Shown in pieces: positions 2 to 62,823 of a stretch of DNA of 64,000 nt. A program made the translations under genes and the position numbers. The stretch comes from Ardenticatenaceae bacterium (GTDB taxonomy: Bacteria > Chloroflexota > Anaerolineae > Promineifilales > Promineifilaceae): assembly GCA_020634415.1 (NCBI GenBank), contig JACKBT010000014.1, positions 50,516 to 114,515 of the forward strand. Reading direction: 5' to 3'. How positions within the stretch are numbered: the first letter of the stretch is position 1; every line of letters begins with the position of its first letter. A model generated the notes under the pieces. The model saw only the letters and a list, made by a program, of their open reading frames with translations, had not been told where the DNA came from and made no database searches.

Positions 2-1960
2 TTACGCCAGGCCGGTAAATACCACCAAATCCTCACCTTGCTGGCACAGGCAGCCCAGCCTGTCAACATCAGCGATATTTATGCTCAAACGGAGTCTACG
101 ATAACGCATCTCCGTAAGCTGGCCGCCCTCGATCTCATCCGCTTTGGGGATGAGGAGGTGTGGCGCGATCCGTTGGCCGACCGTGATTTTATGCCGGCCG
201 AGCAGCCCATGTTAACGGCCGATCAGGCCCGTGTTTGGGGGCGCTTGAAGGTGGAGATGATGACAGTGGAAGAGGAGATGGGCGAAGAGGGAGGGGCGAA
301 GAGGGAGGAATCGTCCCACGCCCTTCGCCCCACGCCCTTCCTCCTTCATGGCGTAACTGGCAGCGGTAAGACGGAAATTTATATGCGGGCGATTGATTTT
401 GCTGTGGCGCGGGGCCAGCAGGCGGTTGTGCTTGTGCCGGAAATTGCCCTTACGCCGCAGACGGTGCGCCGGTTTGCGGCTCGTTTTCCGGGGCGGGTGG
501 CGGTTTTGCACAGCCGCCTTAGCGAGGGCGAACGGTATGACACGTGGCGGCGGGCGCGGCAGGGGTTGTTTGATATTGTGGTGGGGCCACGCAGTGCTTT
601 GTTTACGCCTTTCCCTCATTTGGGTGTGATTGTGTTGGATGAGGAGCATGATCCTAGTTACAAACAAACGCCGCCTGTGCCGCCGCCTTATTACCATGCG
701 CGGGAAACGGCCGTTGCCCTCAGCCAGATCACCCAAGCGACCCTCATTATGGGCAGTGCGACCCCGGATGTGGTGACGTATCATCGGGCGCAAGGCGGCC
801 GTTTTCATCTGTTGGAACTGCCGAAACGGGTGATGGGGCATCGCCAGCGCATACACAGCCAGGAATTGCGGCTGCAAATTGCCAGCCATTATCGTCAGGA
901 AGCTCATGATCCGGATGATGCGTTGACCATCCCTTTGCCGCCCATTCAGGTGGTGGACTTGCGCCAGGAATTGCGGGCGGGCAATCGCTCTATTTTTAGC
1001 CGTGCTTTGGCGAATGCCATTACTGAGACGCTGGATCGGGGGGAGCAGGCCATTCTGTTTTTGAATCGGCGAGGCACGGCGACGTTTGTGATGTGCCGTG
1101 ATTGCGGTCATGTGCTACGCTGCCCCCGCTGTGACATGCCGCTGACGTATCATCGTCCGCATCTGATGTTGGCTTGTCATCACTGCGGCCGTTCCGAACC
1201 GCAGCAGCAGGAGTGCCCACAGTGCGGGTCGCGCCGCATTAAGTATTTTGGCTTGGGTACGGAGCAGGTGGAGACGCTGGTGCAGCAGCAGTGGCCGCAA
1301 GCTCGTATTACGCGGTGGGATAGGGATACGACGGCGGGGCGTAATACGCATGAAACGCTGTTGGCGAGTTTTATTAATCAGGAGGCGGATATTTTGGTGG
1401 GGACGCAGATGATTGCTAAGGGGCTGGATTTGCCGTTGGTGACGCTGGTGGGGGTGATTTCGGCGGATGTGTCGCTGGGGCTGCCGGATTATCGCACGGG
1501 GGAGCGGGCGTTTCAGATTTTGGCGCAGGTGGCGGGGCGAGCGGGGCGCGGTTTATTGGGTGGCCGGGTGATTTTGCAGACGTACCAGCCGGAGCATTAT
1601 GCGGTGGTGGCGGCGGCGGAGCATGATTTTGCCAGTTTTTATATTGAGGAGATTCGCTTTCGCACGAAGCATAGTTATCCGCCTTTCCGGCGGATGGCGA
1701 AGTTGGTGCTGGTTGATCCGGTGAATGAGCGGGGGCAGCGGGAGGCGGAGAAGCTGGCGAAGGGGCTGCGGCTGCATATTCGGGAGATGGCGTTGGGGGC
1801 GACGGAGATTTTGGGGCCGATGCCGCCGTTTTTTAATAGGATAGACGGCCGTTATCGCTGGCAAATCATCATTCGTTCGCCTGATCCGGTGCGTTTGTTG
1901 ACGGATTTTCCTCTACCGCCGAACTGGATTGTGGATATTGATCCGGTGAGTACCTTGTAG
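2..1960 (+). CDS. priA: Primosomal protein N' (PriA helicase), 5'-truncated by window edge
   Basis: PriA is the 3'-5' DNA helicase that reloads the replisome at stalled forks. The frame is open to the first base, so the N-terminal DNA-binding domain lies off the left edge and the TTG at 38 is not a real start. Visible parts in order: the end of a winged-helix segment, Walker A GVTGSGKT, LVPEIALTPQ, the DEEHD box, GSATPD, then a zinc-binding insert with eight cysteines in four CxxC-type pairs (around nt 1090-1240), the GTQMIAKGLD motif and the QVAGRAGRG motif VI. A low-complexity acidic/basic segment just before Walker A is encoded by a heptad repeat array (281-352) and is not part of the normal fold. 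Family identity is certain; the missing start is a window artefact. Confidence 0.95.
   Translation, partial: LRQAGKYHQILTLLAQAAQPVNISDIYAQTESTITHLRKLAALDLIRFGDEEVWRDPLADRDFMPAEQPMLTADQARVWGRLKVEMMTVEEEMGEEGGAKREESSHALRPTPFLLHGVTGSGKTEIYMRAIDFAVARGQQAVVLVPEIALTPQTVRRFAARFPGRVAVLHSRLSEGERYDTWRRARQGLFDIVVGPRSALFTPFPHLGVIVLDEEHDPSYKQTPPVPPPYYHARETAVALSQITQATLIMGSATPDVVTYHRAQGGRFHLLELPKRVMGHRQRIHSQELRLQIASHYRQEAHDPDDALTIPLPPIQVVDLRQELRAGNRSIFSRALANAITETLDRGEQAILFLNRRGTATFVMCRDCGHVLRCPRCDMPLTYHRPHLMLACHHCGRSEPQQQECPQCGSRRIKYFGLGTEQVETLVQQQWPQARITRWDRDTTAGRNTHETLLASFINQEADILVGTQMIAKGLDLPLVTLVGVISADVSLGLPDYRTGERAFQILAQVAGRAGRGLLGGRVILQTYQPEHYAVVAAAEHDFASFYIEEIRFRTKHSYPPFRRMAKLVLVDPVNERGQREAEKLAKGLRLHIREMALGATEILGPMPPFFNRIDGRYRWQIIIRSPDPVRLLTDFPLPPNWIVDIDPVSTL
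281..352. repeat. Heptad-period inverted repeat inside priA
   Basis: The left half repeats gaagagg/gaggggc words and the right half repeats cacgccc/ttcgccc words, every 7 bases, giving an imperfect inverted repeat. It is read in frame as a Glu/Lys/Arg-rich then Pro-rich insertion immediately upstream of the PriA Walker A motif. It has the same architecture as the intergenic arrays elsewhere in the window. Confidence 0.6.
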
Positions 1961-2042
1961 CAGGCAGGAAAAATGGGTGGATGGGCTTGTTGAGGCCATC
2001 CACCCCTGATTGTATGCGATTGAATGAATGCTTTGGGCCGTA

Positions 2043-2438
2043 TTAGGCGGCAACAGGCATGGAGGTGATGGGGGCTGATAGAATTTCTTGGGTGGTTTCT
2101 ATAAGCTCTTGGCGTGATGTGGGTTTGAATAGAAAGCGGGTGACACCTGAGATGCGTCCTGCCTCGACGACTTTTTGGTCTTGGCGGGCTGTTAACAGGA
2201 TGGTTGGGATGTGGGCTGTGGCGCTTTCCTGGCGCAATTGTGAGCAGACTTCTACGCCGTTCATATCAGGCATCATAAAATCAAGAATAATAAGATCGGG
2301 GTGATGGATGCGGGCCTGACTGAGGGCTTCGTCGCCGTTGTTTGCTTCCCATACCTGAGCGGTAATCGGTCGGAGCATTAATCGCAATAAGGAACGGGCT
2401 TCGGGGTTGTCATCTACAATTAGTACTGAGTGCTTCAC
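2043..2438 (-). CDS. CheY-like response regulator receiver protein
   Basis: A single receiver domain of about 131 residues with no output domain, so it probably acts by protein-protein contact after phosphorylation by a histidine kinase. Counted from the GTG start: acidic pair D9/D10, phospho-acceptor D53 in ILDFMMPDMNG, T83 and K105 (FKPTS), all in place. I chose GTG at 2436-2438 because AGGAGA (complement of 2445-2450) sits 6 bases upstream; the in-frame ATG at 2456 lies upstream of that ribosome binding site and has none of its own. No kinase is adjacent; the nearest is the TPR histidine kinase near 24.8 kb, so its partner is unknown. Confidence 0.9.
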   Translation of the reverse strand: MKHSVLIVDDNPEARSLLRLMLRPITAQVWEANNGDEALSQARIHHPDLIILDFMMPDMNGVEVCSQLRQESATAHIPTILLTARQDQKVVEAGRISGVTRFLFKPTSRQELIETTQEILSAPITSMPVAA

Positions 2439-2610
2439 GATTTTTCTCCTTTCCATACAGAGTAAAAGTTCAATCTAACGGTTGTAATTACGATTTTCAC
2501 GGCTTTTTTATGGCATGTGGGGGAGGGGATGCTGATTACTGAACGAAAGTCCGTTGTGGGGCAACGGCCGTTGTGCTTGAATGTGGTGACGATTGATGAG
2601 ATGAGGTGCA

Positions 2611-3579
2611 ATGATGGAACTGTTTTTAGCGACGAGAAAGGGATTGGTAACGGCCGTTCAGACTGGCAATGGCTGGCAAATTGAGGCGAGAGGTTTGACG
2701 GGTCGGGAAGTGACGACGGTGACTGCCCGTGAAGGGGTGATTCTGGCGGGGACGCGGGACGGTGTTTTTCGTTCGGAGGACGGTGGGGTGAGCTGGCTGG
2801 AGAAGAGCAATGGCCTGACGGAGCGGTATGTGCGTTGGCTGGCTTATCACCCTGATGTTTCTGGCCTTGAGTTGGCGGGGATGGAGCCAGCGGCTATTTT
2901 TGTGTCGCGGGATGGGGGGGATTCCTGGCGTGAGTGTGTGGAGGTGAGTGATTTGCGGCGGGAGCATGAATGGTGGCTGCCTTATTCGCCGGGGGCGGGC
3001 TGTGTGCGTGGTTTTAGTTTTCATGGGCAGCGGGCGTATGCGGCGGTGGAGGTGGGGGCGGCGCTGCGTTCGGATGATGGGGGTGCGCATTGGCGTTTGG
3101 TGGATGGGGCAAACGGCCGTCCTGTTTTTGGCGCACCCCCTGCCCAGTTCGTTCACCCGGATGTCCATTCAATCGAAGTCCATCCTTCGTCGGCTGACTT
3201 GGTTTTTGCGCCGACGGGCGGCGGTTTTTATGCTTCCCGTGATGGCGGGCAGACGTGGCGGCAAATAAATGACTGCCTGTATGTGCGGGCGGTGTGGTTG
3301 GATGCAGATGATCCGCAGCATTTGGTTTTGGGGGCTTCGGATGGGCCTGATGGGGAGAACGGCCGTATTGAAGTGACACACGATGGCGGGCAAAGCTGGC
3401 AGCAGGTGGCGGGCCGTTGGCCCAACAACATGGTGGAACGGTTCCAGCAGATCGGTCATAATTTGTGGGCGGTGATGGCCAATGGTAATTTGCTTATGAC
3501 ACCGCTGGCGCAGTTGGACTGGCAGCCAGTGTTGGTGGCATTGACAGATGTAAATGATTTGACGGTAATGGGGGCGTAA
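2611..3579 (+). CDS. BNR/Asp-box beta-propeller protein, sialidase/Ycf48-like fold
   Basis: 322 residues with five Asp-box motifs (S/T-x-D-G-G-x-x-W) near residues 55-62, 99-106, 154-161, 209-216 and 256-263, the signature of a BNR-type beta-propeller. There is no signal peptide or membrane segment, so it is probably cytoplasmic. Asp boxes are structural and do not prove sialidase activity; I see no Arg triad I could assign. ATG at 2611 (ATG ATG) follows GAGGTG at 2603-2608. The stop codon lies inside a hairpin (3573-3601) that may end the transcript. Enzymatic function is unknown. Confidence 0.8.
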   Translation: MMELFLATRKGLVTAVQTGNGWQIEARGLTGREVTTVTAREGVILAGTRDGVFRSEDGGVSWLEKSNGLTERYVRWLAYHPDVSGLELAGMEPAAIFVSRDGGDSWRECVEVSDLRREHEWWLPYSPGAGCVRGFSFHGQRAYAAVEVGAALRSDDGGAHWRLVDGANGRPVFGAPPAQFVHPDVHSIEVHPSSADLVFAPTGGGFYASRDGGQTWRQINDCLYVRAVWLDADDPQHLVLGASDGPDGENGRIEVTHDGGQSWQQVAGRWPNNMVERFQQIGHNLWAVMANGNLLMTPLAQLDWQPVLVALTDVNDLTVMGA

Positions 3580-3601
3580 TTACTAATGACGTAATTACGC
3601 C
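3573..3601. repeat. Inverted repeat at the stop of the BNR gene
   Basis: GGCGTAATTAC at 3573-3583 pairs perfectly with GTAATTACGCC at 3591-3601 over a 7-base loop. The left arm contains the TAA of the propeller gene and the right arm ends 8 bases before the ATG of the next gene. A close relative (TGACGTAATTACGTCATTAT) lies before the ATG at 30523. It could be a stability hairpin or an operator. Confidence 0.55.
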
Positions 3602-3609
3602 ATTATTTT

Positions 3610-4155
3610 ATGAACGTAAAAACAGAACCTTTGTTAACGGCCGTTACCCTGGGCATTGTCTTGCAGCTCATCTTTTATCTCACCTATTTGTTGAGTGTGT
3701 ACAGTGTGCTGGTGGGATCAACATCGGCCGAGATTTTGGCTCCTCGTTTTAGTAATCTCTTGACGTTGTTGAGTTGTGGTTTGATGGTGGGCAGCGGTGT
3801 GGGCAGCGGCTTTGTGTATGTGTTGCTGCATGCCCGGCGCGGGCCGGTGGCGGAGATTGCGGCCCGGGGCGGGGCGACGACGGGGGCGATTACGTTTGCC
3901 ACCAGTGTGATTATCGCCGGTATTTTGGCGATAATCATCATCTTGCCGGTGTTGGGGAACCAGGCGCTGGCGACGGCGACGGCGGCGGAGTTGGCGGCGG
4001 GTGAGGTGACAACGCGCATGTTGAGCCGGGGGGCTGTGGGGATTATTGGGGGGACGGTGGTGTTGTCGGGGATAACGGCCGTTTTGGGAGCTATGCTGGG
4101 TGGCTTAGGTGGTGGCCTGGGGGGTGTCTTCATCCAGTCGCGCCAATCAGGTTGA
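3610..4155 (+). CDS. Small integral membrane protein, function unknown
   Basis: 181 residues, largely hydrophobic. I read about four membrane segments: residues 10-32, 50-73, 96-116 and 142-175, the last very rich in glycine and alanine (VLGAMLGGLGGGLGGVF). Gly-rich helices of this kind pack tightly, but I recognise no family. It follows the propeller gene by 30 bases on the same strand and is convergent with the hydrolase gene at 4163. The start ATG has no clear Shine-Dalgarno sequence; a GTAATTACG hairpin lies directly in front. Confidence 0.7.
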   Translation: MNVKTEPLLTAVTLGIVLQLIFYLTYLLSVYSVLVGSTSAEILAPRFSNLLTLLSCGLMVGSGVGSGFVYVLLHARRGPVAEIAARGGATTGAITFATSVIIAGILAIIIILPVLGNQALATATAAELAAGEVTTRMLSRGAVGIIGGTVVLSGITAVLGAMLGGLGGGLGGVFIQSRQSG

Positions 4156-4162
4156 TGACAGT

Positions 4163-4909
4163 TTACTCATTCACTGTGGCTAGGAACTGAACCATCACTT
4201 CTGCTATTTGTGCCCACTGTTCTTCGGGGGAGATAGTGGCGGGATTATCGCCCTGTTGGAAGCCGTAAGCGCCAAATTGGGAATGGTTGCCGCCGGTGAT
4301 GGCTACAAATTGGGCCTCGGTGGGGAGAAGGGGTTGGGAGTCATCAATGTCCTGCTTCGTGGCTAATCCATCCTGTGTGCCGAAGATGGAAATCACCTTT
4401 ATGGCCGAATCTTTCAAGGCATCGTTGGCCGGGTAAGAGGCCCAAAAGGCGATGCCCTCTATGGCGGCATGTTCCGACGCATAGCTGGCGGCGGCCACGC
4501 CACCCAGGGAATGGCCGCCGATGACCCAATGTTGTATGCCGGGGTTGGCGGCGATGATGGCATCTGCCGCATTGGTTTTGAAAAAGGCCAGGTCGAGCGG
4601 CATTTCGGCGACGGCTACGAAATAGCCCTGAGCCGCAATTTGCCGTAAGGGTGGGGCGTAGGCACGGTAGTCTACGTGACCACCAGGGTAGAAGATGAGG
4701 CCGGTATCGGCCGTTTGCCCCGCAGCCGCAAAAGTGATGAGTCCATCTGCTGGGGATACCTGCACTTGAGCGTCGGAGGTCAATGCCTGTAAAGCGGTGT
4801 CGGTGGGGGCTAATGTGCCTCGTGTCCAGCTTATCAGGCCAATGGCGAGTGCGGCCACAAGCAGGAGGATGATTCCAAAAATGACTTTTTTCCAGGTGAT
4901 TTTTTTGAT
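4163..4909 (-). CDS. Membrane-anchored alpha/beta hydrolase (possible ATC start)
   Basis: Alpha/beta hydrolase fold, dienelactone-hydrolase-like. Counted from the internal GTG at 4858: nucleophile elbow GHSLGG with Ser117, acid Asp163 (GTQDG) and His192 (GGNHSQFG). GTG 4858 falls in the middle of a hydrophobic helix and has no ribosome binding site. The frame stays open upstream and reads IKKITWKKVIFGIILLLVAA, an ideal signal anchor, beginning at an ATC codon (4907-4909) that sits 8 bases after AAAGGAG (complement of 4918-4924). I therefore give the longer form with a non-standard ATC start; the conservative form is 4163-4858. The substrate is unknown; it is probably exposed outside the membrane. 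Confidence 0.8.
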   Translation of the reverse strand: MKKITWKKVIFGIILLLVAALAIGLISWTRGTLAPTDTALQALTSDAQVQVSPADGLITFAAAGQTADTGLIFYPGGHVDYRAYAPPLRQIAAQGYFVAVAEMPLDLAFFKTNAADAIIAANPGIQHWVIGGHSLGGVAAASYASEHAAIEGIAFWASYPANDALKDSAIKVISIFGTQDGLATKQDIDDSQPLLPTEAQFVAITGGNHSQFGAYGFQQGDNPATISPEEQWAQIAEVMVQFLATVNE

Positions 4910-5109
4910 GGTATTTACTCCTTTGAAAGAATTGTAGAGTAGATTTTAACAGGCTCAACAAGTCGTGCCACGCATCCAGATAGCTGCTTCTTGGCCCATT
5001 AAGTCATCCTTCAAAAGGCTGGCAGGCATCATCTGTGGTGCGCTGGTCTTTGTTCCAGAGCCAAGTGTCCGATTGATTTAGTTGTGGATAAGAAAACGAA
5101 TGAAGGGAA

Positions 5110-5157
5110 CCAATTGTCATTCCTGGTTGGGCAGTTTGCCTCTGGAATGACAATTGG
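5110..5157 (-). terminator. Hairpin downstream of the small coiled-coil gene
   Basis: CCAATTGTCATTCC (5110-5123) is a perfect 14-base complement of GGAATGACAATTGG (5144-5157), with a 20-base loop. It lies about 20 bases past the stop of the leftward gene at 5180. No clear U-run follows on that strand, so it may be a transcript-end stabiliser or a mobile palindrome rather than a classical terminator. Confidence 0.45.
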
Positions 5158-5179
5158 CAATTGGCACGGGGGGTAGCTG

Positions 5180-5494
5180 CTAGCGCTTGGCGGTGATGCC
5201 GAAGGCGACCCAATGCTCCTGCGGGGTGGCGATTTTGACGCGCTTGGCAAGGTCAGCATGTTTGGCCTTAGCCACTTTCATTTTGTCGTTTAAGGCGTCG
5301 GTCTTGCTCTTGAGCAGGGCTTTGAGTTCTTCTTGTTCGGAATTGAGGGTATCGAGGTCGTTGGCCAGGGTTTCCAGATCGGTGGCGTCGGCAGCGGAGA
5401 TGCCGATGCCGATGAGGTCGGCCTGACGGGTGGTGATGCCGCTGGCCATCGTACGGAAATTGGAAACGGATTGAGAGAACGTTGGGGTTGCCAT
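5180..5494 (-). CDS. Small coiled-coil protein of unknown function
   Basis: 104 residues. The N-terminal third is polar and helical, followed by a strongly helical, charged segment (ETLANDLDTLNSEQEELKAL and onward, residues 40-85) predicted to form a coiled coil, and a short tail ending W-V-A-F-G-I-T-A-K-R. The ATG is well supported by AAAAGGAG a few bases upstream. It is cytoplasmic, with no cysteines and no enzyme motifs. Its promoter side runs into the 21-bp repeat array at 5579-5744, so gene and array may be one unit. I do not recognise a named family. Confidence 0.7.
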   Translation of the reverse strand: MATPTFSQSVSNFRTMASGITTRQADLIGIGISAADATDLETLANDLDTLNSEQEELKALLKSKTDALNDKMKVAKAKHADLAKRVKIATPQEHWVAFGITAKR

Positions 5495-5578
5495 TAAAAG
5501 CTCCTTTTGCTAAAGAAATTTATGCTCCACGAAAGTGGAGCCTATCAAACAAAGGTGGGCACAAGTTAAAACTACCTG

Positions 5579-5744
5579 CCCGAAAGCTTCGGGATGATGC
5601 CCCAAAGCTTCGGGATGATGCCCAAAGGCTCCGGGATGATGCCCGAAAGCTTCGGGATGATGCCCAAAGGCTCCGGGAAGCTGCCCCAAAGCTCTGGGAA
5701 GCTGCCCCAAAGCTTCGGGATGATGCCCGAAGGCTCCGGGAAGG
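5579..5744. repeat. Tandem 21-bp repeat array, copy 1 (8 units)
   Basis: Eight head-to-tail units, the last incomplete, each close to cccgaaagcttcgggatgatg. Each unit is itself near-palindromic (CCCGAAAGCTTCGGG). Read either way it has no stops and would encode heptapeptides such as KLRDDAP, but no start signal or constrained ends support a protein. The 5495-5972 interval has no convincing gene; beyond the array, 5745-5972 is AT-richer DNA in which I see nothing else. A second array in the same orientation lies at 9684-9872. Confidence 0.85.
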
Positions 5745-5972
5745 TTATTTCGTGGTAAAAGAATGTCTTTAAGATCAACCACTTTCTTTTATTTTGAATA
5801 GTCCACCATTTTGGTGACCATTTTGCTTATTTGATGCGCTAGAGGCCGATTGTATACCCTTCTATTATCTGGTTATCTAAATGATAATTACAAGCTGGCG
5901 GTTAGTATAAACAAAGCTGAATTAGAAGGCAACGTCCAGAGAAAATTGGAGAATGATTACAGACTTTGTGTA

Positions 5973-7283
5973 TTATTTCCTGACTTTGCGCGGTTTCTTG
6001 GTGGCTGCTTCAACGGCTTGAATGAGCGGCGCGGTGTAACGTTTATAGAGGTCGAATAAAAACTCGAGGCGTTCTAATTCAGTTTTGAAGGCTCTGGAAC
6101 GGTAACAGGCATCCACTGCCGCATCCAACTCCCGATGGGCATCTACCAGCAGTTTGGGCATGGTGTTGGGATCGTATAAATCGGCTAAGGTATCATTGGG
6201 GAAGTGGGTACGAGCGTCTAAGACCTTTTGTGCGGCTGTTTCGACACGCTGTCTTTGAGATTCGCTTGGATTTTCAGGCCAGGGGTAGTTGTTATAAACG
6301 ATATTGTTTGAGTAGCGGAAATCGCCTTTTATACGGCCACATACTTGCCGTGTCCAAGCCATGTGCATGGTAGATTGGAGTACACCAAAATGATAGAGTG
6401 TGGCATTAGGCACAGCCGCACAAGAATCGCTTACAATATACTCTTTGCTAAAGAAGGCCATAGGGATAAATCGCCGATTCTCAGAAGAATGACGGGGAAC
6501 GAGAACGTAATTACTCTCTGGCTGGCGAATTTCGGCAAAAAGCGAGGGGATAGCCGCTAACTTGACAGTGGCGGCTTTCTTACTTGCCAGACGAAAAGTC
6601 CGTACATTTTCAACACGTTTCATGATGTTGGGTAATGCACGTAACTCTTTAGGAGAAATATCTTTTAGCCATAAACACCAGCGATTTTCGCCATTGAGGA
6701 ATTGATGGGCACTTACCAATGGGTAGATGAAATTTTGGGCATGGGGTTCATGCCCTAATAGCGTTGCTTTTTCTTCGTCGGTAAGTAGTAAGTTGCCATC
6801 ATCAGTAGGTTGACTACCTTTAACCATTTGTGGCACAGCACAGATAGGTTTGTTTCTGCTGGTAATGATTACATTGGTAGCATCGACTAGATAAGGATTA
6901 ATGTTATTGGCTGTAACCTCCAATGGCTCGGCATCTGGCGATGTGTATTCATACAATCGCTTGGTTTTTGCATCTTCAAGACCAAAGCCGATAATGACAC
7001 AGAAAACGGCCGCTTTACCACGTGCATCATTACTCCATCGAAAGGTACGATGGGCAAAATGGATCTTAATGTTTTGAGCCAATAACCATTGCCACAGAAC
7101 CCCTACCTGTTCTCCCTGAGTAATGGAGTTGGTAGAGACAAAAGCCACTTGGATGTTAGTATTTTGAATAAACTGGGCGGCTTTGATGTACCAGGCACAG
7201 ACATAATCCAGCACGCCATATTTCAATAAGTTACCACCAACAAAGTCCATATCAGCATTTTGAGCTGAGGTAATGGTTAACAC
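5973..7283 (-). CDS. C-terminal fragment of the MmeI-like enzyme
   Basis: 436 codons open from inside the IS end. The first eight residues (MLTITSAQ) come from IS and target-duplication sequence; native sequence resumes at NADMDFVGGNLLKYG. It covers the last methyltransferase motifs, the presumed target-recognition domain (with a PWPENP-type motif as in MmeI relatives) and a Lys/Arg-rich end (TKKPRKVRK). It lacks motif I and NPPF, so alone it cannot methylate. A product would require internal initiation. Confidence 0.75.
   Translation of the reverse strand: MLTITSAQNADMDFVGGNLLKYGVLDYVCAWYIKAAQFIQNTNIQVAFVSTNSITQGEQVGVLWQWLLAQNIKIHFAHRTFRWSNDARGKAAVFCVIIGFGLEDAKTKRLYEYTSPDAEPLEVTANNINPYLVDATNVIITSRNKPICAVPQMVKGSQPTDDGNLLLTDEEKATLLGHEPHAQNFIYPLVSAHQFLNGENRWCLWLKDISPKELRALPNIMKRVENVRTFRLASKKAATVKLAAIPSLFAEIRQPESNYVLVPRHSSENRRFIPMAFFSKEYIVSDSCAAVPNATLYHFGVLQSTMHMAWTRQVCGRIKGDFRYSNNIVYNNYPWPENPSESQRQRVETAAQKVLDARTHFPNDTLADLYDPNTMPKLLVDAHRELDAAVDACYRSRAFKTELERLEFLFDLYKRYTAPLIQAVEAATKKPRKVRK
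7261..7268. repeat. IS target-site duplication, left copy
   Basis: TGAGCTGA flanks the IS here and again at 8052-8059. A G following both copies would make it 9 bp if the IS end is taken one base shorter. Direct 8-9 bp duplications are typical of IS1-family insertion. Confidence 0.85.
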
Positions 7284-7718
7284 TCAACTGATGACCCTCA
7301 AATTGTATTCATGCAGATAGAGTTTGAGAGCAATTTCATGAAATTCATCCGATTTGGAAAAAGAGAGACTCTTCCGTACAAAGCGTGCCAAGCGTTGACG
7401 CAAGGTGTTATTCCAGCGTTCAACGTGAGCCGTTTGACCACTTTCTTTGCCGACCGATTGATGCTCTTTAGCCAAAGTGCCGAAAACAGTGGCATAGGTC
7501 TCCCAGAAGTCGCTGAAGGTCTGACAGTGACGGTAAGCCCGGGGAATCCGTTGCCACAAACGCCAGCAACTTTCCTCACTACGGTCACCAATAAAGTAGG
7601 CAACCACTTGGCGAGTGCGACGACAGAGGGCAATCCAAATCCACCGTTTGTTGCCCTTATGCAAGACAAATGACCAGAGTTCATCCAGTTCCAAAACATC
7701 ATCTCCTTTACTGGTCAC
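7284..7718 (-). CDS. insB: IS1-family transposase catalytic ORF (InsB-like)
   Basis: 144 residues carrying the IS1 DDE signature: ELDELWSFV near residue 10-18, the second Asp in SDFWETY, and the Glu in ETAHVERWN-type context (here QTAHVERWNNTLRQRL), followed by RKSLSFSKSDEFHE. The annotated GTG at 7718 is probably not used. The frame is open further upstream to an A8 run, and in IS1 the active enzyme is an InsAB' fusion made by frameshifting. Reading through the A8 run with one A fewer gives InsA-KWLKKAQTLPPIAQTL-InsB. Confidence 0.85.
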   Translation of the reverse strand: MTSKGDDVLELDELWSFVLHKGNKRWIWIALCRRTRQVVAYFIGDRSEESCWRLWQRIPRAYRHCQTFSDFWETYATVFGTLAKEHQSVGKESGQTAHVERWNNTLRQRLARFVRKSLSFSKSDEFHEIALKLYLHEYNLRVIS

Positions 7719-8001
7719 TAAGGTCTGAGCAATGGGTGGTAGAGTCTGGGCTTTTTTTTAACCATTTGGCTACTGTTTGCCGAGCCACGCCAAAGGTTCT
7801 GGCCAAACCTCGTAGGCTTGACCTTTCATGATAAGCTCGCAGAATTTCTGCTTGCCGTTCTGGGGAGTATTTCACCTCTGGCTCAAGTGTGCCATAAGCA
7901 CCACAGCTATGGCAGTGAAATTTCTGCTTGCCTTTTGGTGTGCAGCCGTTTTTGACAATATCAAGGCTGCCGCATCGGGTACATTCAAAAGTGACTGTCA
8001 T
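7708..8001 (-). CDS. insA: IS1-family InsA-like DNA-binding protein
   Basis: About 97 residues from ATG 8001, which has AGGGA 9 bases upstream; ATG 8010 abuts that site and is less likely. The N-terminus is a four-cysteine zinc finger (CTRCGS...CHSCGAYG), followed by a helix-turn-helix (RGLARTFGVARQTVAKWLKK) that binds the terminal repeats. It overlaps insB by 11 bases. The A8 run at 7752-7759 lies at the end of the HTH, the place where IS1 frameshifts. InsA alone acts as a repressor in IS1; that is inferred here. Confidence 0.85.
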   Translation of the reverse strand: MTVTFECTRCGSLDIVKNGCTPKGKQKFHCHSCGAYGTLEPEVKYSPERQAEILRAYHERSSLRGLARTFGVARQTVAKWLKKSPDSTTHCSDLSDQ

Positions 8002-8032
8002 GGTTATCATTCCCTGATTCTACTTCCATCAG

Positions 8033-9550
8033 TCACACATTTACCACTACCTGAGCTGAGTTACGCAAGTGTTTACCTACAAAAGGTGGATTGCCAAGAA
8101 TGTAAAGAGTCGTTTCTCCAGAGGAAACAGGTTTGGGCACAATGGTTTCCCAATCTATACGCAAGGCATTGCCATGATGAATGCGGGGAGACTTTTTGAG
8201 TGGTAGACGGACTAACGTTTGCCCAAACTCCTGCGAAAGCTCCATGTTCATCTGATGATCCGTTAACCACAGCGCTACTTCGGCTATACGGGCTGGGAAC
8301 TCTTCCACTTCGATGCCATACATCGCGTCCACATCAATCTTGGACAGGTACTCACCCACATCCAATACGGTCTGGATGGCTACATTTCCCGACAATTTAT
8401 GCAACTGCTTCACAATAGCTATTTCCAGCCTGCGTACTTCCCGATAGGTAATGATTAAAAAATTACCGCAACCACAGGCGGGATCAAAAAAGCGCAGTTG
8501 GGCCAGGCGTTCATGGAGTTGCCTGAGCCTGTGGGCATTGAATTGCACTTTCTCAAACTCTTGCCACAACTCATCCAAAAACAACCCCCGTACTACCTTC
8601 AAGATATTCTTTTCCGATGTATAGTGCGCTCCTAGATTACGCCGTTGGGTCTTATCCATGACTGACTGGAACATTGAACCAAAGATAGCGGGTGAAACCT
8701 TGCTCCAATCAAAACCACAACATTGCAAAAGAAGCTGGCGCATTTCGTCTGTGAAAGCCGCAATTCGCAACGGCTCCGCAAAAAGTTGACCATTGACGTA
8801 AGGGAACTGCTGTAATTCCTCATCTGTGGCTCGCTGTCGCTGCGTTTCGGGGCTGTTCAAGATTTGGAAAATAGCGGCTAAAACGGAGCCGGTATCAAAG
8901 CCGTTCGGGTTGGTTCTATTTTCAATGAAATAATGAAAATGATCTTTGGGGAAGATGCCCGTATCATCAGCAAACAGGCAGTAGATGAGGCGCACCAGGA
9001 AAATTTCTAAATCATGCCCTTCATAACCACTGGCCTTTAACTCATCGTGTAACTCCCCCATTTTCTCGGCTACCTGAATGTTTACAGGGTCTTCATCCCG
9101 ATAGGTGCGCTGTTTATAACCGGAGATAAAACCAAATAGATGAATTTTGTCGGGCAGGTCTATCAGGGCAAAATCTGTCTGTTCGCTGCTATCTAAATCA
9201 TAAAGCCGAAAGTTAGCGAAATCGGACACCAATACATATTGGGGTAATTCTTGTTCAGAAATGCCAGGAAAATAATCCAAGGCTTGGCTGTAGGCTTTAT
9301 CTAAATCTTTGCCTTTCGATTTATGTTCGACCAGCAAGGTACCTTTCCAAAATAAATCTATAGATCCCCGATTTTTGCCTAATTTCTTTACAGGTTCTTC
9401 AAAAGAAGCAACACGGCGACGAGTAAGGCCAAATATGTTGAAGAATTCATTCCAAAAGGTTTGGGATTCAGCTTTCTCACGGGCAACATTTTGCCAATCT
9501 TTAGCGAAGGCTAAGGCACGATCTCTTATTTCTTGCTGGGTAAGTGGCAT
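8033..9550 (-). CDS. N-terminal fragment of the MmeI-like enzyme (nuclease plus methyltransferase motifs I and IV)
   Basis: About 505 residues from ATG 9550. The last five (VVVNV) are IS-encoded, and a TGA in the IS end stops it. It keeps the PD-(D/E)xK nuclease (D65, E75, K77), a helical spacer, GAHYTS, motif I and NPPF, but lacks the target-recognition domain. If expressed it would be a nuclease without sequence guidance, presumably inactive or harmful, so silence is likely. Confidence 0.8.
   Translation of the reverse strand: MPLTQQEIRDRALAFAKDWQNVAREKAESQTFWNEFFNIFGLTRRRVASFEEPVKKLGKNRGSIDLFWKGTLLVEHKSKGKDLDKAYSQALDYFPGISEQELPQYVLVSDFANFRLYDLDSSEQTDFALIDLPDKIHLFGFISGYKQRTYRDEDPVNIQVAEKMGELHDELKASGYEGHDLEIFLVRLIYCLFADDTGIFPKDHFHYFIENRTNPNGFDTGSVLAAIFQILNSPETQRQRATDEELQQFPYVNGQLFAEPLRIAAFTDEMRQLLLQCCGFDWSKVSPAIFGSMFQSVMDKTQRRNLGAHYTSEKNILKVVRGLFLDELWQEFEKVQFNAHRLRQLHERLAQLRFFDPACGCGNFLIITYREVRRLEIAIVKQLHKLSGNVAIQTVLDVGEYLSKIDVDAMYGIEVEEFPARIAEVALWLTDHQMNMELSQEFGQTLVRLPLKKSPRIHHGNALRIDWETIVPKPVSSGETTLYILGNPPFVGKHLRNSAQVVVNV
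8052..8059. repeat. IS target-site duplication, right copy
   Basis: TGAGCTGA, identical to 7261-7268; together they mark the insertion point within codons for Ser-Ala-Gln of the host gene. Confidence 0.85.
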
Positions 9551-9683
9551 AGTTATAACGTTTGTTGATTCTTGAACGGGTCTAAAACTTGGTGGCAATT
9601 ATAGGAAAAGCAGAAAGCATGTCAAAAAGAAAATCGTTTTGTCATCACCAAACTTACATCTCACTGCGCTTGTTGGCTCTGTT

Positions 9684-9872
9684 CCCGAATGCTCCGGGAA
9701 GCTGCCCGAAAGCTTCGAGATGATGCCCCAAAGCTTCGGGATGATGCCCGGAGACAAAAGTTATCTACCCGAAAGCGTCGGGAAGGTGCCCGAAAGGTTG
9801 GGGATGATGCCCGAAAGCTCCGGGATGCTGCCCCAAAGGTTGGGGAAGCTGCCCGAAGGCTCCGGGATGAAG
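9684..9872. repeat. Tandem 21-bp repeat array, copy 2 (9 units)
   Basis: Nine units of exactly 21 bases, the same family and orientation as 5579-5744. Unit 4 (9747-9767) has diverged almost completely yet keeps the length of 21. The array sits between the start of the restriction gene and the stop of the MFS gene (9887). Open frames on both strands arise only because the unit lacks stops. With copy 1 it brackets the restriction island. Confidence 0.85.
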
Positions 9873-9886
9873 TGGCAACGGCCGTT

Positions 9887-11275
9887 TCACTCCCCCTTAG
9901 CCCGTTCACTGAGCGTTTGTCTGACGGCGGCACTGTCTTGGGGGGCGGTGCGGGCGATGAAGATGTAGCAGAGGCCAGCGGGAATGACGATGAGTTGGAA
10001 GAGGGAGAGGCCGATGGCGTAGTTGGTGGGGGCAGGGTAAACGGCCGTTACCCGACTAATCACCACGCCTGTCAAACTTACACTCAAAGCATTGGCCACA
10101 GCGCGGAAGAGGCGGCTGAAACCGACAAACGTGCCGCGATGCTCCGGCAGGTTCACCTCGGTGATGAGGGCGGCCCAGTTGGGGCCTTCGGCGGAGAAGA
10201 GGGCAATGCCGATGAGGGCCACGATGAAAGCCAGGGCCACCCAGCCATTGGTGACGATGCTGACAATGACAGCCCAACTGATTTGCAGCAAGCTGCCATC
10301 CGTCGGAATGAACACGCCTTTGAAGGGCAGGAAGAAAAGCAAGATGAGAAAAGGAATGGAGCCGAGCAGACCGATGGCCCCTAGCGTGGCGCGGCCACGT
10401 GGGTTGCGCCGCTGCCACTTATCGCCCCAATGGCCGGCGGGAACGGCCAGGAAGCCGCCAATGCCAAAGAGGGTGACGAAGAGGTTGCCGATGATGGTGG
10501 CTGTTTCCAGGTTGTAGCCTTCGGCCTGCACGCGGGCAATGGCCCAACGGGGAATCCAAATGGTGGAGCCGTAGGCCAGCGAGAGGAAGAATCCTTGCAA
10601 AATAAGCCAGCGGTTGGTGGGGCGGTTGAGGATGGTTTGGAGATCGGCGAAGGTGATGCGGTGTTGGTAGGTTTGGCCTGACTGGAAGAGGGGTTTTAGC
10701 TCTGGTTCGGCCTGGCCGCGTTGGGGTTCGCGGGTGAAGAGGTAGAGAAAGGCGAAGAGGAAGCCGAGTGCGGCGATGATGAAGAAGGGGATGCGCCAGT
10801 TGTAGGCGCCGAGGGAACTGGCTAGCAGTGCGCCAAAAGTAGCCCCAATGCCCTGGGAAATGCTCCACAGGCTGAGGGCCAGCCCGCGCCGTCTGGCAGG
10901 TACGATGTCGCTGACGACGCTGAAGCCGATGGAGGCGATGCAGCCGATGCCAACGGCCGTTACTAACTGCCCCGCTAACAACTGCCAATATGTTTGGGCC
11001 AGGCCGGTGAGGCACATGGCTGTGCCCCAAATGAGTGTGCCGTAGAGGAGGAGGGATTTGCGCTGCCCCTGGTCGCCGCGATAGCCCCAGAAGGCGGCGG
11101 CGGCGGCGAGGATGAGGATGTAGACGGCCGTTACGCCTCCCAACGCAGCTTCATTGGCCTCTAAATCGCGGGCGATGAGGGCATAGAGCGGTGGCAGCAC
11201 ACCGGCGGCAGCGTTATCGAGGGAGGCCAGGACGACGAAGATGGCGTAGTTGAAGAGGAGGCGACGACGGGTCAT
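9887..11275 (-). CDS. MFS transporter, Spinster-like
   Basis: About 462 residues with roughly 12 membrane helices and the MFS loop motif between helices 2 and 3 (GYRGDQGQRKSLL). A charged central loop (EPQRGQAEPELKPLFQSG) separates the halves. The substrate cannot be told. ATG 11275 (MTRRRLLF) is preferred over ATG 11296, because the seven extra codons come from an inverted repeat (11280-11335). It is the last gene of a leftward run and its stop abuts the 21-bp array, so readthrough into the array is likely. Confidence 0.88.
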   Translation of the reverse strand: MTRRRLLFNYAIFVVLASLDNAAAGVLPPLYALIARDLEANEAALGGVTAVYILILAAAAAFWGYRGDQGQRKSLLLYGTLIWGTAMCLTGLAQTYWQLLAGQLVTAVGIGCIASIGFSVVSDIVPARRRGLALSLWSISQGIGATFGALLASSLGAYNWRIPFFIIAALGFLFAFLYLFTREPQRGQAEPELKPLFQSGQTYQHRITFADLQTILNRPTNRWLILQGFFLSLAYGSTIWIPRWAIARVQAEGYNLETATIIGNLFVTLFGIGGFLAVPAGHWGDKWQRRNPRGRATLGAIGLLGSIPFLILLFFLPFKGVFIPTDGSLLQISWAVIVSIVTNGWVALAFIVALIGIALFSAEGPNWAALITEVNLPEHRGTFVGFSRLFRAVANALSVSLTGVVISRVTAVYPAPTNYAIGLSLFQLIVIPAGLCYIFIARTAPQDSAAVRQTLSERAKGE

Positions 11276-11279
11276 GGAC

Positions 11280-11335
11280 CGTAATCGGTAAACCATAATC
11301 GGTTATCCGATGACCGATTACGGTTTATGGTTTAC
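11280..11335. repeat. Heptad-period inverted repeat
   Basis: The left arm is built of 7-base words (cgtaatc, ggtaaac, cataatc, ggttatc) and the right arm of their complements (accgattacggtttatggtttac). It overlaps the end of the SH3 gene (stop at 11325) and the region just upstream of the MFS start. Confidence 0.7.
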
Positions 11336-12332
11336 TAAATTGGCGGCGGGCGATGGCGGCGAAGATGCCGCCAGCTACTAATACCAGCCCCACGATGGGC
11401 AGCAGGTTGGGGGTGCGGGCTGGCACTTCCTCTTCCAGCGGGGTGGCGGTGGGCTGGATGGGATAGGCGGTGGGTCTGGCTTCGCTGATGGGGGTGGGTT
11501 CGTCTTCGCTGACGGCGAGGCTGGCGATGCGCGTAGCGGCTTCGGCTTCGTTTTTGGTAGCTTCGGGGGTAACAGTGAGGGTGGGTGTGGCTTCGCTGAT
11601 GGTAGTGGCGGTGGGTGTGGCTTCGCTGACGGCCGTTGCTGTGGCGGTGGGCGGGGGTGTGGGCGATTCGGTGACGGTGGGGGATGGGGTGTAGGTGGGG
11701 GTGACGGTGCAGGAGGGCCGGGGCGTGGGCTGCCAGGGTGCGCCAGGTGTGGGTGTTTGCCCATTGAGCGGCGGTGCCGCCACGACGGGCACATTGCCGA
11801 TGTAGCCTTGTACCAGACCCACCGCATCGGCGACCCAGCCGGAACGGCCGTCGGCCAGTTCAATCAGCCACCACTGACCGTATTGCGAACGGCCGATGAT
11901 GGGGCGAACCTCATAAAAGATAACCCGGTCTATAATGTCATAGTCTATGCCTGGGCCGAGGCGCACGTTGAGATTGTTGAAGGCCTGAATGGTGGGTGAA
12001 TCGTCGCAAGGGGCGGCGGTGGGTAAGTAGCCGCCTTCGGGTGTAGGGGCCAGTGTTGAGGCAGGAATGAGCGTGGGGGTGGCTGTGGGGCCGGGTTGGG
12101 TTGGCTGTGGGTTGTTGCCGTTGCCACCATCGTCAGGCGTTGCGGTTGCTGATGGTTCTGGGGTATCGGTGGGCGTGTCGGTGGTTGGAACTACGGGGGT
12201 GTCTGAGGGAACGGGTGTGGGTGAGGGGATGGTTTGCCCGGATGCTGTGTGAAGTTGGGACTGATGGCTGAAGCTTAATACGATCAGGCTGCATAAGAAG
12301 ATGAATAGGATGAGGGTTTTTTGTTTGGACAT
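11325..12332 (-). CDS. Secreted, membrane-anchored bacterial SH3-domain protein with Pro/Thr stalks
   Basis: 335 residues: signal peptide 1-32, a Thr/Pro stalk, a bacterial SH3 domain about residues 115-180 (NLNVRLGPGIDYDIIDRV ... WWLIELADGRSGWVADAVG), a long second Pro/Thr/Glu-rich stalk, and a C-terminal membrane helix (LLPIVGLVLVAGGIFAAIA) followed by basic residues. SH3b domains usually bind cell-envelope polymers; the stalk would hold the domain away from the membrane. It lies 6 bases downstream of the DUF4012 gene on the same strand, so the two probably share a transcript. The stalk repeats (EATPTATTISEATPT) suggest slippage-driven expansion. Confidence 0.8.
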   Translation of the reverse strand: MSKQKTLILFIFLCSLIVLSFSHQSQLHTASGQTIPSPTPVPSDTPVVPTTDTPTDTPEPSATATPDDGGNGNNPQPTQPGPTATPTLIPASTLAPTPEGGYLPTAAPCDDSPTIQAFNNLNVRLGPGIDYDIIDRVIFYEVRPIIGRSQYGQWWLIELADGRSGWVADAVGLVQGYIGNVPVVAAPPLNGQTPTPGAPWQPTPRPSCTVTPTYTPSPTVTESPTPPPTATATAVSEATPTATTISEATPTLTVTPEATKNEAEAATRIASLAVSEDEPTPISEARPTAYPIQPTATPLEEEVPARTPNLLPIVGLVLVAGGIFAAIARRQFSKP

Positions 12333-12338
12333 GGCTTA

Positions 12339-14345: not shown

Positions 14346-14694
14346 GGCAGTCCATAGTTTGTAATTGGTGGAGGTGGCAGAACGGCCGTTGCCCTTGTTG
14401 GCTGAGTGCGTTTATGTCATACGCATCGGGCCAGGCGACATCTGGGTAACGTTGTTTTAGCTGCTGCCGCCGCCAGTCGAAGGCGAACAGGTTTTCATCT
14501 ACCAAGATCAGGTCGGGGCGCATTCCTTCGACAAATTGGAAATACCATAAGGTGAAAAGTGTCCCCTCGCCCGACATTAGTAAAATGGCGTTGTCTGGTG
14601 CTGTTTGTAATAGCTGTGTCGCAGACGGCCGTATGGTCTGCTCCTCTCTTAAATTTTGCTGATTAAAGTTTAGCAGAAGCAGGGCGAGGGGCAA
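14338..14694 (-). CDS. C-terminal fragment of the DUF2723 protein
   Basis: 118 codons in the restored frame: the last membrane helix end (LALLLLNFNQQ) and a soluble part (APDNAILLMSGEGTLFTLWY...RPDLILVDENLFAFDWRRQQL). The segment resembles the extracytoplasmic C-terminal domain of PMT/DUF2723 enzymes. It has no ribosome binding site of its own that I can see, so it should be read as the tail of the frameshifted gene. Confidence 0.65.
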   Translation of the reverse strand: MPLALLLLNFNQQNLREEQTIRPSATQLLQTAPDNAILLMSGEGTLFTLWYFQFVEGMRPDLILVDENLFAFDWRRQQLKQRYPDVAWPDAYDINALSQQGQRPFCHLHQLQTMDCHE

Positions 14695-53907: not shown

Positions 53908-55137
53908 ATGGTGGGAAATTCTAGGATGTATTTGTTAACTTTGCCAACCTGCGCGGAAAAACGTATGGCTGTGCGGGTAACGGCCGTTGCCGAACGCGCC
54001 CTGCGTAGTGGCCATCCCTGGCTGTTTGCCAGTGGGGTGGAGTCGGTTAGTTTTGAGGGCAATGCAGGCGATCTGGCTGTTGTGTTTGATGGCAAACGCC
54101 GTTTTCTGGCCGTTGGTTTGTACGATCCCCATTCGCCCATTCGGGTGCGCATCTTACAGCACGGCGAGCCAGCCACAATTGATGCGGCCTGGTTTGAGCG
54201 GAAAATTGCGGCGGCAGCAGCGATTCGGGCTTATTTGCCGGCTGCGGGGACGACAGGGTATCGGCTGGTGCATGGCGAGAATGATGGCTTGCCAGGGTTG
54301 ATTGTAGACCGGTATGGGGAGACGCTGGTTTTGAAGCTGTATACGGCGGCCTGGCTGCCCCATTTGCGGGCTGTGGTGGCGGCGGCAACGGCCGTTGCCC
54401 ATCCCCAGCGCATTGTCCTTCGCCTGAGCCGCGAGATGCAAAAGCAGGAACTGTATGGTTTGTTTGACGGCATGGTTTTGGCGGGAGAGCCATTAGCTGG
54501 CGATATGCAGTTTTGTGAAAATGGCCTGTTGTTGGCGGTGGATGTGGTGCAAGGGCAGAAAACGGGCTTTTTCCTCGACCAGCGCGAGAATCGAGCGCGG
54601 GTGGAAGGGCTGGCGCAAGGCAAGTCGGTGTTGAATGTGTTTGCTTATACGGGTGGTTTTTCGCTGTATGCGGCGCGGGGCGGGGCGCGAGAGGTAGTGA
54701 GCTTGGATTTGAGTGAACCGGCGTTGGCAACGGCCGTTCACAACTTCGTTCTCAACCAAATCACCACGCCGCACGAAACGCTGGTGGGCGATGCTTTTCA
54801 GGTGATGAGTGAGTTGGCCGCAAACGGCCGTCTCTTCGACATGGTTATCATTGATCCGCCGTCTTTTGCTAAGAAACAATCGGAAGTAGCGGGGGCGTTG
54901 GGGGCATACGGCCGTTTGGTGCGTTTGGGTCTCGAACTGTTACAGCCTGGGGGGATATTGGTAATGGCTTCTTGCTCCAGCCGAATTGCAGCCGCAGCTT
55001 TTTTTGAATTGGTACATAAGACGGCGCGGGAGGGCGGACGGCCGTTGCGCGAAATTGAGCGCACCGAACATGCTTTAGACCACCCTATTACCTTCAAAGA
55101 GGGTGCTTACCTCAAATGCCTATTCGCCACTGCCTAG
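53908..55137 (+). CDS. rlmI: Class I SAM-dependent rRNA methyltransferase, RlmI type
   Basis: 409 residues from ATG 53908; shorter starts at 53926 or the MAVRV codon are possible. PUA-like N-terminus (RALRSGHPWLFASGVESVSFEGNAGDLAVVFD), the EEHD-like central domain, then the methyltransferase: VLNVFAYTGGFSLYAARGGAREVVSLDLSEPAL, MVIIDPPSFAKKQ (DPPSF) and VMASCSSRIAAAAF. RlmI methylates C5 of 23S rRNA C1962 in E. coli; the Cys in ASCSS fits the m5C chemistry. A strong TAAAAT lies 3 bases before ATG 53908. Confidence 0.88.
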   Translation: MVGNSRMYLLTLPTCAEKRMAVRVTAVAERALRSGHPWLFASGVESVSFEGNAGDLAVVFDGKRRFLAVGLYDPHSPIRVRILQHGEPATIDAAWFERKIAAAAAIRAYLPAAGTTGYRLVHGENDGLPGLIVDRYGETLVLKLYTAAWLPHLRAVVAAATAVAHPQRIVLRLSREMQKQELYGLFDGMVLAGEPLAGDMQFCENGLLLAVDVVQGQKTGFFLDQRENRARVEGLAQGKSVLNVFAYTGGFSLYAARGGAREVVSLDLSEPALATAVHNFVLNQITTPHETLVGDAFQVMSELAANGRLFDMVIIDPPSFAKKQSEVAGALGAYGRLVRLGLELLQPGGILVMASCSSRIAAAAFFELVHKTAREGGRPLREIERTEHALDHPITFKEGAYLKCLFATA

Positions 55138-62463: not shown

Positions 62464-62473
62464 TCTGCCTCCA

Positions 62474-62545
62474 AGATAGGTATAGTGGTGTATTGGTATA
62501 GTGGTGTATTGACTTTTACACCAATACACCAATACACCTTTACAC
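62474..62545. repeat. Inverted repeat of TGGTGTATTG words
   Basis: ggtatagtggtgtattggtatagtggtgtattg on one side, caccaatacaccaatacacctttacacc on the other. It lies between the riboswitch terminator and the ribosome binding site of the metB-like gene. Confidence 0.7.
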
Positions 62546-62550
62546 CAAAT

Positions 62551-62585
62551 AAAAACGCCCCTTCTGGAAGGTTCAGAAGGGGCGT
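62551..62585 (-). terminator. Riboswitch expression-platform terminator
   Basis: On the minus strand: ACGCCCCTTCTG-AACCTTC-CAGAAGGGGCGT followed by a U-run (aaaaa at 62551-62555 on the plus strand). It stands directly downstream of the SAM-I aptamer; SAM binding should favour this hairpin and stop transcription before the metB-like gene. Confidence 0.9.
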
Positions 62586-62600
62586 GTCTTGGCAGAATGA

Positions 62601-62730
62601 CCTCTTACTTATCTTCCAGAAGCGACTATCTGCTTCTGACGGAATTAGCACCATTTCGGTGTAAGCTTGTGGCTTACAGCGCGGTTGCTGAGGTTTCATC
62701 GGGCCGGTCCCTCAACCTCTCTGGATAAGA
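62601..62730 (-). promoter_or_regulatory. SAM-I (S-box) riboswitch
   Basis: Minus-strand sequence shows the conserved S-box order: CTTATCCAGAGAGGTTGAGG, GACCGGCCCGATGAAACCTC, AGCAACC, GGTGCTAATTCC, and GATAAG closing helix P1 with CTTATC. It controls the metB-like gene and probably the aspartokinase gene after it. It follows typical S-box layout with a terminator immediately after. Confidence 0.95.
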
Positions 62731-62823
62731 TGGATAATGTATGAAGTTGGTAAATGTTCTAACGAACGATAAAGATGATAACAAAGGGGTAAACGGCCGT
62801 CAAACAAAATCCAAAAATTAACT

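Follow-up and report, generated by a model that had tools for sequence, protein, structure and literature searches.

A highly iterated palindrome in one lineage of Chloroflexota and a candidate NotI-type methyltransferase

The palindromic octamer ACGGCCGT is a highly iterated palindrome (HIP) of one Chloroflexota lineage. We found 105 exact copies, at positions 707-62800, in a 64-kb stretch of DNA (the window, by which we mean the whole stretch), and about 3,000-15,000 in each octamer-rich genome of its relatives. Within one genus of these the sites are strongly conserved, and most octamer-rich genomes encode a candidate methyltransferase of the NotI family. We lean toward the view that a NotI-type methyltransferase, domesticated and in most cases orphaned, has ACGGCCGT as its target and that a process reading the methyl mark maintains the sites; both the methylation and its reader are what we infer from the pattern of sites and genes.

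HIP1 was first described in 1995 (as cited in PMC4390886), and its role, its origin and the persistence of thousands of copies have been debated since. HIPs with orphan methyltransferases, namely HIP1, GCGATCGC, and alternate HIPs, are already known from cyanobacteria (Elhai 2015, PMC4390886). We found no report of ACGGCCGT, or of such a signal in Chloroflexota, in the open literature searched.

Results

The octamer in the window

The 105 copies of ACGGCCGT far exceed chance. One hundred dinucleotide shuffles of the window gave a mean of 1.34 copies and a maximum of 5, and Markov models predicted 1.1 (order 1), 1.9 (order 2), 4.5 (order 3) and 14.6 (order 4). The expectation rises to 50 at order 5 and 97 at order 6 because such models take in sub-words of ACGGCCGT itself. 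The runner-up among palindromic octamers, GTAATTAC, has 6 copies (0.4 expected). A first-pass annotation of this DNA had given about 20 exact copies in 10-20 kb against about 0.2 expected. Its excess stands, also against other palindromic octamers after Markov correction; its density figure was an understatement (105 in 64 kb, with 1-2 expected). The same annotation took occurrence in both orientations as evidence, which carries no weight because ACGGCCGT is its own complement, and it extended the octamer to a 14-mer, GTAACGGCCGTTAC, which has no match in the window. HIP1 itself is excluded, as GCGATCGC is not among the enriched octamers of the window and the host belongs to the Chloroflexota.

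Departures from ACGGCCGT pile up at the first and last base, as in the HIP class. Variants with a single changed end base total 46 copies over 6 words (about 15 expected), the commonest being ACGGCCGA (18) and TCGGCCGT (11), whereas variants with a single changed inner base total 11 copies over 18 words (about 24 expected), 13 of which have no copy at all. GGCC is barely above expectation (582 vs 495), CGGCCG occurs 168 times (31 expected), with 105 of these within ACGGCCGT, and AACGGCCGTT has 48 copies (0.17 expected). The tenth base of the window sites is preferentially A (0.69). All three codon offsets occur among the 95 genic sites (52, reading TAV, 30 and 13), and 10 of the 105 sites fall outside or across the genes taken, where 13.8 are expected.

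The exact matches, which as palindromes have no strand, begin at 707, 1845, 2564, 2650, 3113, 3359, 3637, 4075, 9878, 10041, 10953, 11124, 11629, 11844, 12424, 13023, 13584, 14023, 14382, 14625, 15247, 15864, 16148, 16492, 17143, 17907, 18045, 19381, 19536, 20507, 20730, 22297, 22606, 22997, 24733, 24814, 25389, 26101, 26350, 26455, 27816, 28151, 28352, 30259, 30462, 31132, 31777, 32026, 32464, 33794, 35115, 35692, 35734, 36100, 37244, 37960, 37981, 40143, 40194, 40378, 40689, 40852, 41011, 41193, 41511, 41709, 42368, 43020, 43378, 43558, 44354, 45921, 46054, 46352, 46567, 47919, 49859, 50366, 51758, 53137, 53651, 53980, 54388, 54730, 54824, 54908, 55038, 55626, 57245, 57395, 57644, 57704, 58161, 58746, 58833, 59191, 59560, 60560, 60937, 61806, 62135, 62230, 62380, 62418 and 62793.

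Distribution among relatives

The excess is genome-wide and limited to a clade. Protein matches and the relatives of the RlmI-like rRNA methyltransferase gene assign the window to Chloroflexota, close to records that bear the labels Anaerolineae and Ardenticatenaceae. That gene (53908..55137, + strand), which contains six copies of the octamer, served as tblastn probe, and 80 loci were fetched. The RlmI-like proteins of the HIP-bearing relatives are 59-67% identical to that of the window, and our genome-wide statements rest on these relatives. Eight loci (L001-L005, L007, L014 and L039), all from metagenome-assembled genomes (MAGs) of Chloroflexota, have ACGGCCGT as their top palindromic octamer; in the remaining Chloroflexota loci of the 80 it is absent or near expectation. 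It is also top in L078, an Alistipes locus, but with 5 copies against 1.0 expected.

The whole genomes behind these eight Chloroflexota loci hold 11,512, 11,907, 9,707, 6,147, 11,353, 6,316, 6,919 and 6,514 copies, with 46-459 copies of the reversed control word, whereas seven other relatives hold 14 to 227. These counts bear out the first-pass proposal of a genome-wide, HIP1-like signal outside cyanobacteria, and the signal is not restricted to the window. Among 396 genomes of the class, 21 exceed 1,000 copies, a threshold of our choosing for "high-count", with a maximum of 14,867 in 7.7 Mb (G369). The signal is therefore clade-limited within the class.

Conservation and spacing of sites

Sister genomes, the comparison suggested by the first-pass annotation, keep the octamers far above other DNA. 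In orthologous stretches within the six-species genus of G369 (reciprocal and overlapping pairs, and so not independent), 73 of 82 octamers were kept where DNA identity was about 0.93, 100 of 104 at 0.906, 72 of 82 at 0.866, 34 of 41 at 0.832 and 74 of 112 at about 0.75. The fraction kept among all octamers of the same pairs was 0.54-0.68, 0.50, 0.38-0.40, 0.27 and 0.12-0.14, respectively. Silent bases are kept as well. In codons with an unchanged amino acid and a wobble base inside the octamer, that base was identical in 185 of 192 cases at about 0.93 (161 expected from the same codons elsewhere), 250 of 253 at 0.906 (193), 176 of 178 at 0.866 (133), 84 of 90 at 0.832 (55) and 186 of 208 at about 0.75 (108). 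For the bare core CGGCCG between other outer bases, conservation does not clearly exceed that of comparable GC hexamers: the fractions kept were 0.81, 0.59, 0.54, 0.27 and 0.18, and those of other G3C3 hexamers 0.76, 0.59, 0.49, 0.34 and 0.21. Since the octamer is kept and the bare core is not, upkeep appears to read at least eight bases.

The spacing of 1,011 sites is near random (coefficient of variation 1.04), with no sign of a maximum gap, which excludes a fixed spacing. Gaps below 50 bases are somewhat few (62 vs 81 expected) and gaps of 150-600 are many.

A candidate methyltransferase

A search for a solitary methyltransferase, also proposed in the first-pass annotation, yielded a strong candidate in the relatives' genomes, of the NotI family and mostly without endonuclease. 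The candidate is a cysteine-rich, DUF1156-like protein of about 660-670 residues, found through a split match to PF01555 in which the end part of the domain precedes a cysteine-rich middle and the first part follows it. At an identity of at least 48%, a threshold of our choosing that admits partial matches (G220, G326, G366, G332 and G078), it occurs in 49 of the 396 class genomes, and beyond that set in G001 and G002; G405 and G406 lay outside the search. It is found in 17 of 21 high-count genomes and in 32 of the 375 others (Fisher p 1e-13, uncorrected for kinship); its specificity we infer from its NotI neighbor. It was not detected in G009, despite the richness of that genome in ACGGCCGT, nor in four high-count class genomes (G015, G164, G215 and G292). 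MutL was present in 34 of 36 genomes tested and missing in G009 and G245; without MutL, the G009 assembly may be incomplete.

Two other classes of methyltransferase were rejected as partners. A general 5-methylcytosine (m5C) methyltransferase is excluded, as G001, G005, G007, G009, G180, G215, G363, G369, G393 and G406 have no PF00145 match. Generic PF01555 methyltransferases match in 15 of 15 genomes (14 over the cut-off), none being both strong and common.

Linkage to NotI endonuclease genes

Close kin of the candidate are still paired with an endonuclease, as expected of an orphan derived from a restriction-modification pair. In the fetched loci, a PF12183 (NotI endonuclease) gene adjoins the enzyme gene in G255, G193, G014, G289 and 12 further carriers (16 in total), and the two genes have consecutive locus tags, H6662_12900 and H6662_12905, in a public MAG. 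PF12183 was found in 16 of 57 genomes searched, all 16 being carriers of the enzyme. Among 49 carriers searched (all but G220 and G366), it occurs in 2 of 21 HIP genomes and 14 of 28 others (p 0.005). With 19 of 21 HIP carriers lacking PF12183, an endonuclease together with its methyltransferase is not the usual state of the HIP genomes. On the enzyme tree, the row of G255, which has NotI, is sister to that of G310, which lacks it, a pair that may show NotI loss near the event. Since both are HIP genomes, the HIP there did not require that loss.

The ratio of observed to expected (O/E) counts of CGGCCG in the fetched loci was 4.6 in HIP orphans (19 genomes), 4.25 in HIP carriers with NotI (2), 2.5 in non-HIP orphans (14) and 1.1 in non-HIP carriers with NotI (14); it was 0.66 in 16 other Chloroflexota loci, with the enzyme search covering the genomes of six of these (G006, G008, G010, G011, G012 and G013). 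Non-HIP orphans and non-HIP NotI carriers differ with p 0.005, kinship still included. Loci shorter than 3.5 kb (G220, G366 and L214) were left out of the comparison.

Outer base pairs around the core

Two carriers of the enzyme have the same core with other outer bases. G193 has 12,040 copies of GCGGCCGC in 8 Mb (2 of the reversed control word) and 83 of ACGGCCGT. G108, in which the enzyme gene lies in two overlapping frames, has 7,668 copies of TCGGCCGA in 5.1 Mb (control 125) and 85 of ACGGCCGT. Conversely, the 18 class genomes with the A..T version (HIP-A) have 14-229 copies of TCGGCCGA, and the nine HIP-A genomes checked have 41-650 of GCGGCCGC. The choice is very sharp in G369, with 14,867 copies of ACGGCCGT against 200 of TCGGCCGA and 353 of GCGGCCGC. 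Among 20 sharp cases in the class, a set defined post hoc once G164, G215 and G292 were seen to have little flank choice, the outer pair is A..T in 18, T..A in one (G108) and G..C in one (G193). The tenth base also varies by lineage: C in the genus of G369 (0.39), C in G193 (0.67) and T in G108 (0.67; 27-29 sites each for G193 and G108). Beyond it there is only a preference for G, up to 0.61. We rejected the idea that pre-existing sites in G193 had switched to new outer bases, since its sites do not coincide with those of relatives, judged on few sites in the few stretches that could be aligned. CCGGCCGG, a possible fourth outer pair, is moderately enriched in two enzyme carriers (14 vs 3.3 expected in L191 of G235; 8 vs 2.3 in L192 of G249).

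CGGCCG is enriched 7-11 fold, with flanks barely chosen, in G164, G292 and G215 (loci L206, L207 and L243; L210 and L211; L208 and L209). The A..T, T..A and G..C counts are 1,727, 1,326 and 1,462 in G164, 1,189, 771 and 1,959 in G215, and 2,982, 925 and 797 in G292. Because of this lack of choice, we take their core enrichment as a separate phenomenon. An m5C methyltransferase of G164 that matches M.HaeIII (PDB 1dct, E 3.5e-125) may be relevant to it. G357 (L246) favors TCGGCCGA (2,070 copies) and has no enzyme match.

The octamer in phages

Some tailed phages carry the octamer at host-genome density. A scan of IMG/VR for paired nearby octamers, a search that favors dense contigs, returned 80 stretches (L253-L332), 46 of which have at least 5 octamers and a more than tenfold excess. 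Outside the matched stretches, 11 of 17 picked contig entries have 1.4-3.5 octamers per kb and 6 have 0-0.3. The proteins of rich loci (20 scanned) include portal and large terminase (L313), terminase (L297), tape measure (L283), portal (L331), endolysin and FtsK-like (L312), and lytic tail or endolysin, anti-repressor and FtsK-like (L256). Six such loci pooled hold 227 octamers, with 4.3 expected. No gene for the candidate enzyme was present in the phage pieces searched, which are parts of contigs. The octamer-rich tailed phages and other mobile contigs (2-4 per kb) are likely viruses of these Chloroflexota, and some of the viral contigs may be proviruses. The octamer could act as a host marker for phages.

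An octamer-free stretch and other features of the window

The window contains one long stretch without ACGGCCGT (4083..9877; 5.8 kb, with 0.008 such gaps expected). It holds an MmeI-like type IIL restriction-modification gene in two pieces, all on the minus strand: the N-terminal, spacer and first methyltransferase parts at 8033..9598 (PF20464 2.4e-45, PF20465 1.2e-23, PF20473 1.8e-54) and the rest of the methyltransferase with the target recognition and C-terminal domains at 5973..7283 (PF20473 8.4e-37, PF20466 1.6e-76, PF20467 9.7e-32), separated by an IS1-type transposase gene at 7284..7718 (PF03400 1.2e-22). The split gene and the transposase make it probable that the stretch is, at least in part, a recent acquisition. 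Foreign DNA can thus remain octamer-free for a time, which argues against an absolute self-marking duty of the octamer. The MmeI-like gene is excluded as a cause of the octamer, being split by a transposase and located in the octamer-free stretch.

A repeat with a 21-base period (AAGCTTCGGGATGATGCCC plus further bases) flanks this MmeI/IS1 stretch at 5584-5729 and 9710-9834 (10 matches with at most 3 mismatches); its two parts may be the edges of DNA inserted into a repeat gene. The window is also strongly depleted in other GC palindromes (GGGCCC 0, 51 expected; GCGCGC 0, 26; CCATGG 3, 39; GGCGCC 5, 49), which suggests restriction pressure in the past. The GC skew of the window is positive to about 28 kb, negative at 32-44 kb and then near zero.

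Discussion

We postulate that a NotI-family amino-methyltransferase most likely acts on the core CGGCCG; in relatives this enzyme would form a restriction-modification pair with a NotI-type endonuclease, whereas it stands alone in nearly all HIP genomes searched. After loss of the endonuclease, sites could have multiplied by substitution, and the whole octamer, rather than the core, would then be held at fixed places. The methylated octamer might be read by methyl-directed DNA maintenance acting on all resident DNA, phages included. Strand discrimination in mismatch repair seems the likeliest reader, since it would work on whatever DNA resides in the cell, that of phages too, and since MutL is present. 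NotI reads eight bases, and the simplest account of the flanks would be that the enzymes read eight bases and that their outer specificity drifts.

Several observations weigh against this proposal. If the enzyme reads CGGCCG alone, the flank choice would need a second reader. The window itself has no gene for the candidate methyltransferase in the 64 kb searched, and no enzyme was detected in six octamer- or core-rich genomes (G009, G015, G164, G215, G292 and G357); the loci of the first five exceed every other group in core O/E, with a pooled value of 8.6. Conversely, 32 of the 49 class carriers have no ACGGCCGT HIP (2 of the 32 have HIPs with other flanks), 14 carriers have neither a NotI gene nor a sharp octamer, and two HIP genomes, G255 and G193, retain the NotI gene. 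The carriers are related, so their counts are not independent: the HIP-A label changes 3 times on the enzyme tree, against a shuffled mean of 13.2. Lastly, HIP and non-HIP genomes both have MutL, which provides no contrast and excludes the presence or absence of MutL as an explanation.

A lineage-specific protein of the nucleoid, or of segregation, recombination or uptake, might instead bind the octamer, with selection keeping the sites and the methyltransferase a bystander or site protector. The conservation of the octamer rather than the core and the very sharp flank choice of G369 would suit such a protein, as would the presence of the octamer in G009 and G015 without a detected enzyme. We nevertheless regard a binding protein as unlikely, given that the core is the same as in the NotI site, that genomes with two other versions of the flanks carry an enzyme of this same family, and that the octamer occurs in phages. 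In addition, the spread of sites is near random, with a genic share about as expected, and a palindrome is directionless, unlike Chi or segregation polarity signals.

Elhai's GmeC-directed mismatch-repair ratchet, in which biased repair alone makes and keeps the sites without benefit, accounts for some of the same features. One-base departures lie mainly at both ends, as PMC4390886 reports for HIP1. MutL is present, no longest allowed gap is evident, and the octamer in phage DNA is to be expected if repair bias acts on all replicating DNA. However, the published form requires a G beside the methylated C, and 19 of the 20 sharp cases have A..T or T..A as outer bases, which departs from the exact GmeC rule. 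With the inner GC as the signal, the outer bases ought to be irrelevant, and eight HIP-A genomes (G009 aside) have no PF00145 match. The ratchet therefore seems to us quite improbable as the explanation.

Bias in codons or proteins can hardly be the cause of the excess, nor can a mobile repeat that was copied around: TAV is read by 52 of 95 genic sites, but all three offsets are used (52/30/13), silent bases are kept far above the same codons elsewhere, nothing but a G preference is left beyond the tenth base, and in the few stretches that align the HIP sites of G193 lie elsewhere than those of its relatives.

Among known systems, the octamer shares much with HIP1 (Elhai 2015, PMC4390886). Both are GC-rich palindromic octamers with a density of about 0.5-2.5 per kb; both go with orphan methyltransferases and have departures mainly at the end bases and a core with a chosen outer pair, with alternates by lineage (TCGATCGA in cyanobacteria; TCGGCCGA and GCGGCCGC in Chloroflexota). 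In contrast to HIP1, ACGGCCGT belongs to another phylum, with the core CGGCCG and other outer bases, and the enzyme is a NotI-related amino-methyltransferase, whereas those of cyanobacteria are m5C CGATCG and GATC enzymes; here restriction-modification kin of the enzyme occur within the same class, and the octamer occurs in some tailed phages.

The likeness to the NotI system lies in the PF12183 gene beside the methyltransferase in 16 carriers and in the common core. The NotI site is GCGGCCGC, which is also the HIP of G193, and the EagI site is CGGCCG. Unlike in the NotI system, the endonuclease is mostly missing from HIP carriers and the site is multiplied, not avoided. The enzyme also resembles DUF1156 methylases (COG1743-type) in its split PF01555 match and in weak DUF1156 matches in Pfam (G001), NCBIfam and PADLOC, but it scores far under the Pfam and NCBIfam model cut-offs and is shorter than the profiles of 944-960 positions. 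Chi sites and DNA uptake sequences, too, are short words present far above chance along a genome; they are generally non-palindromic and are not known to be tied to a methyltransferase.

HIP1 has so far been studied mainly in cyanobacteria, and the Chloroflexota octamer is a second, apparently independent case. It offers a different core and enzyme class, three outer-base versions, close relatives with paired and unpaired enzymes, sister genomes 75-93% identical, and phages. Such material allows comparative tests of rival ideas: the GmeC model fails to predict the outer bases, and upkeep acts on the octamer, not the core. We speculate, tentatively and with considerable doubt, that domesticated NotI-type methyltransferases repeatedly founded genome-wide methyl codes in Chloroflexota, with lineage-specific outer pairs, such that all DNA of the cell is marked, phages are forced to adopt the mark, and unmarked DNA is misrepaired or treated as foreign. 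If this is true, cyanobacterial HIP1 would exemplify what generally becomes of restriction-modification systems once they are orphaned.

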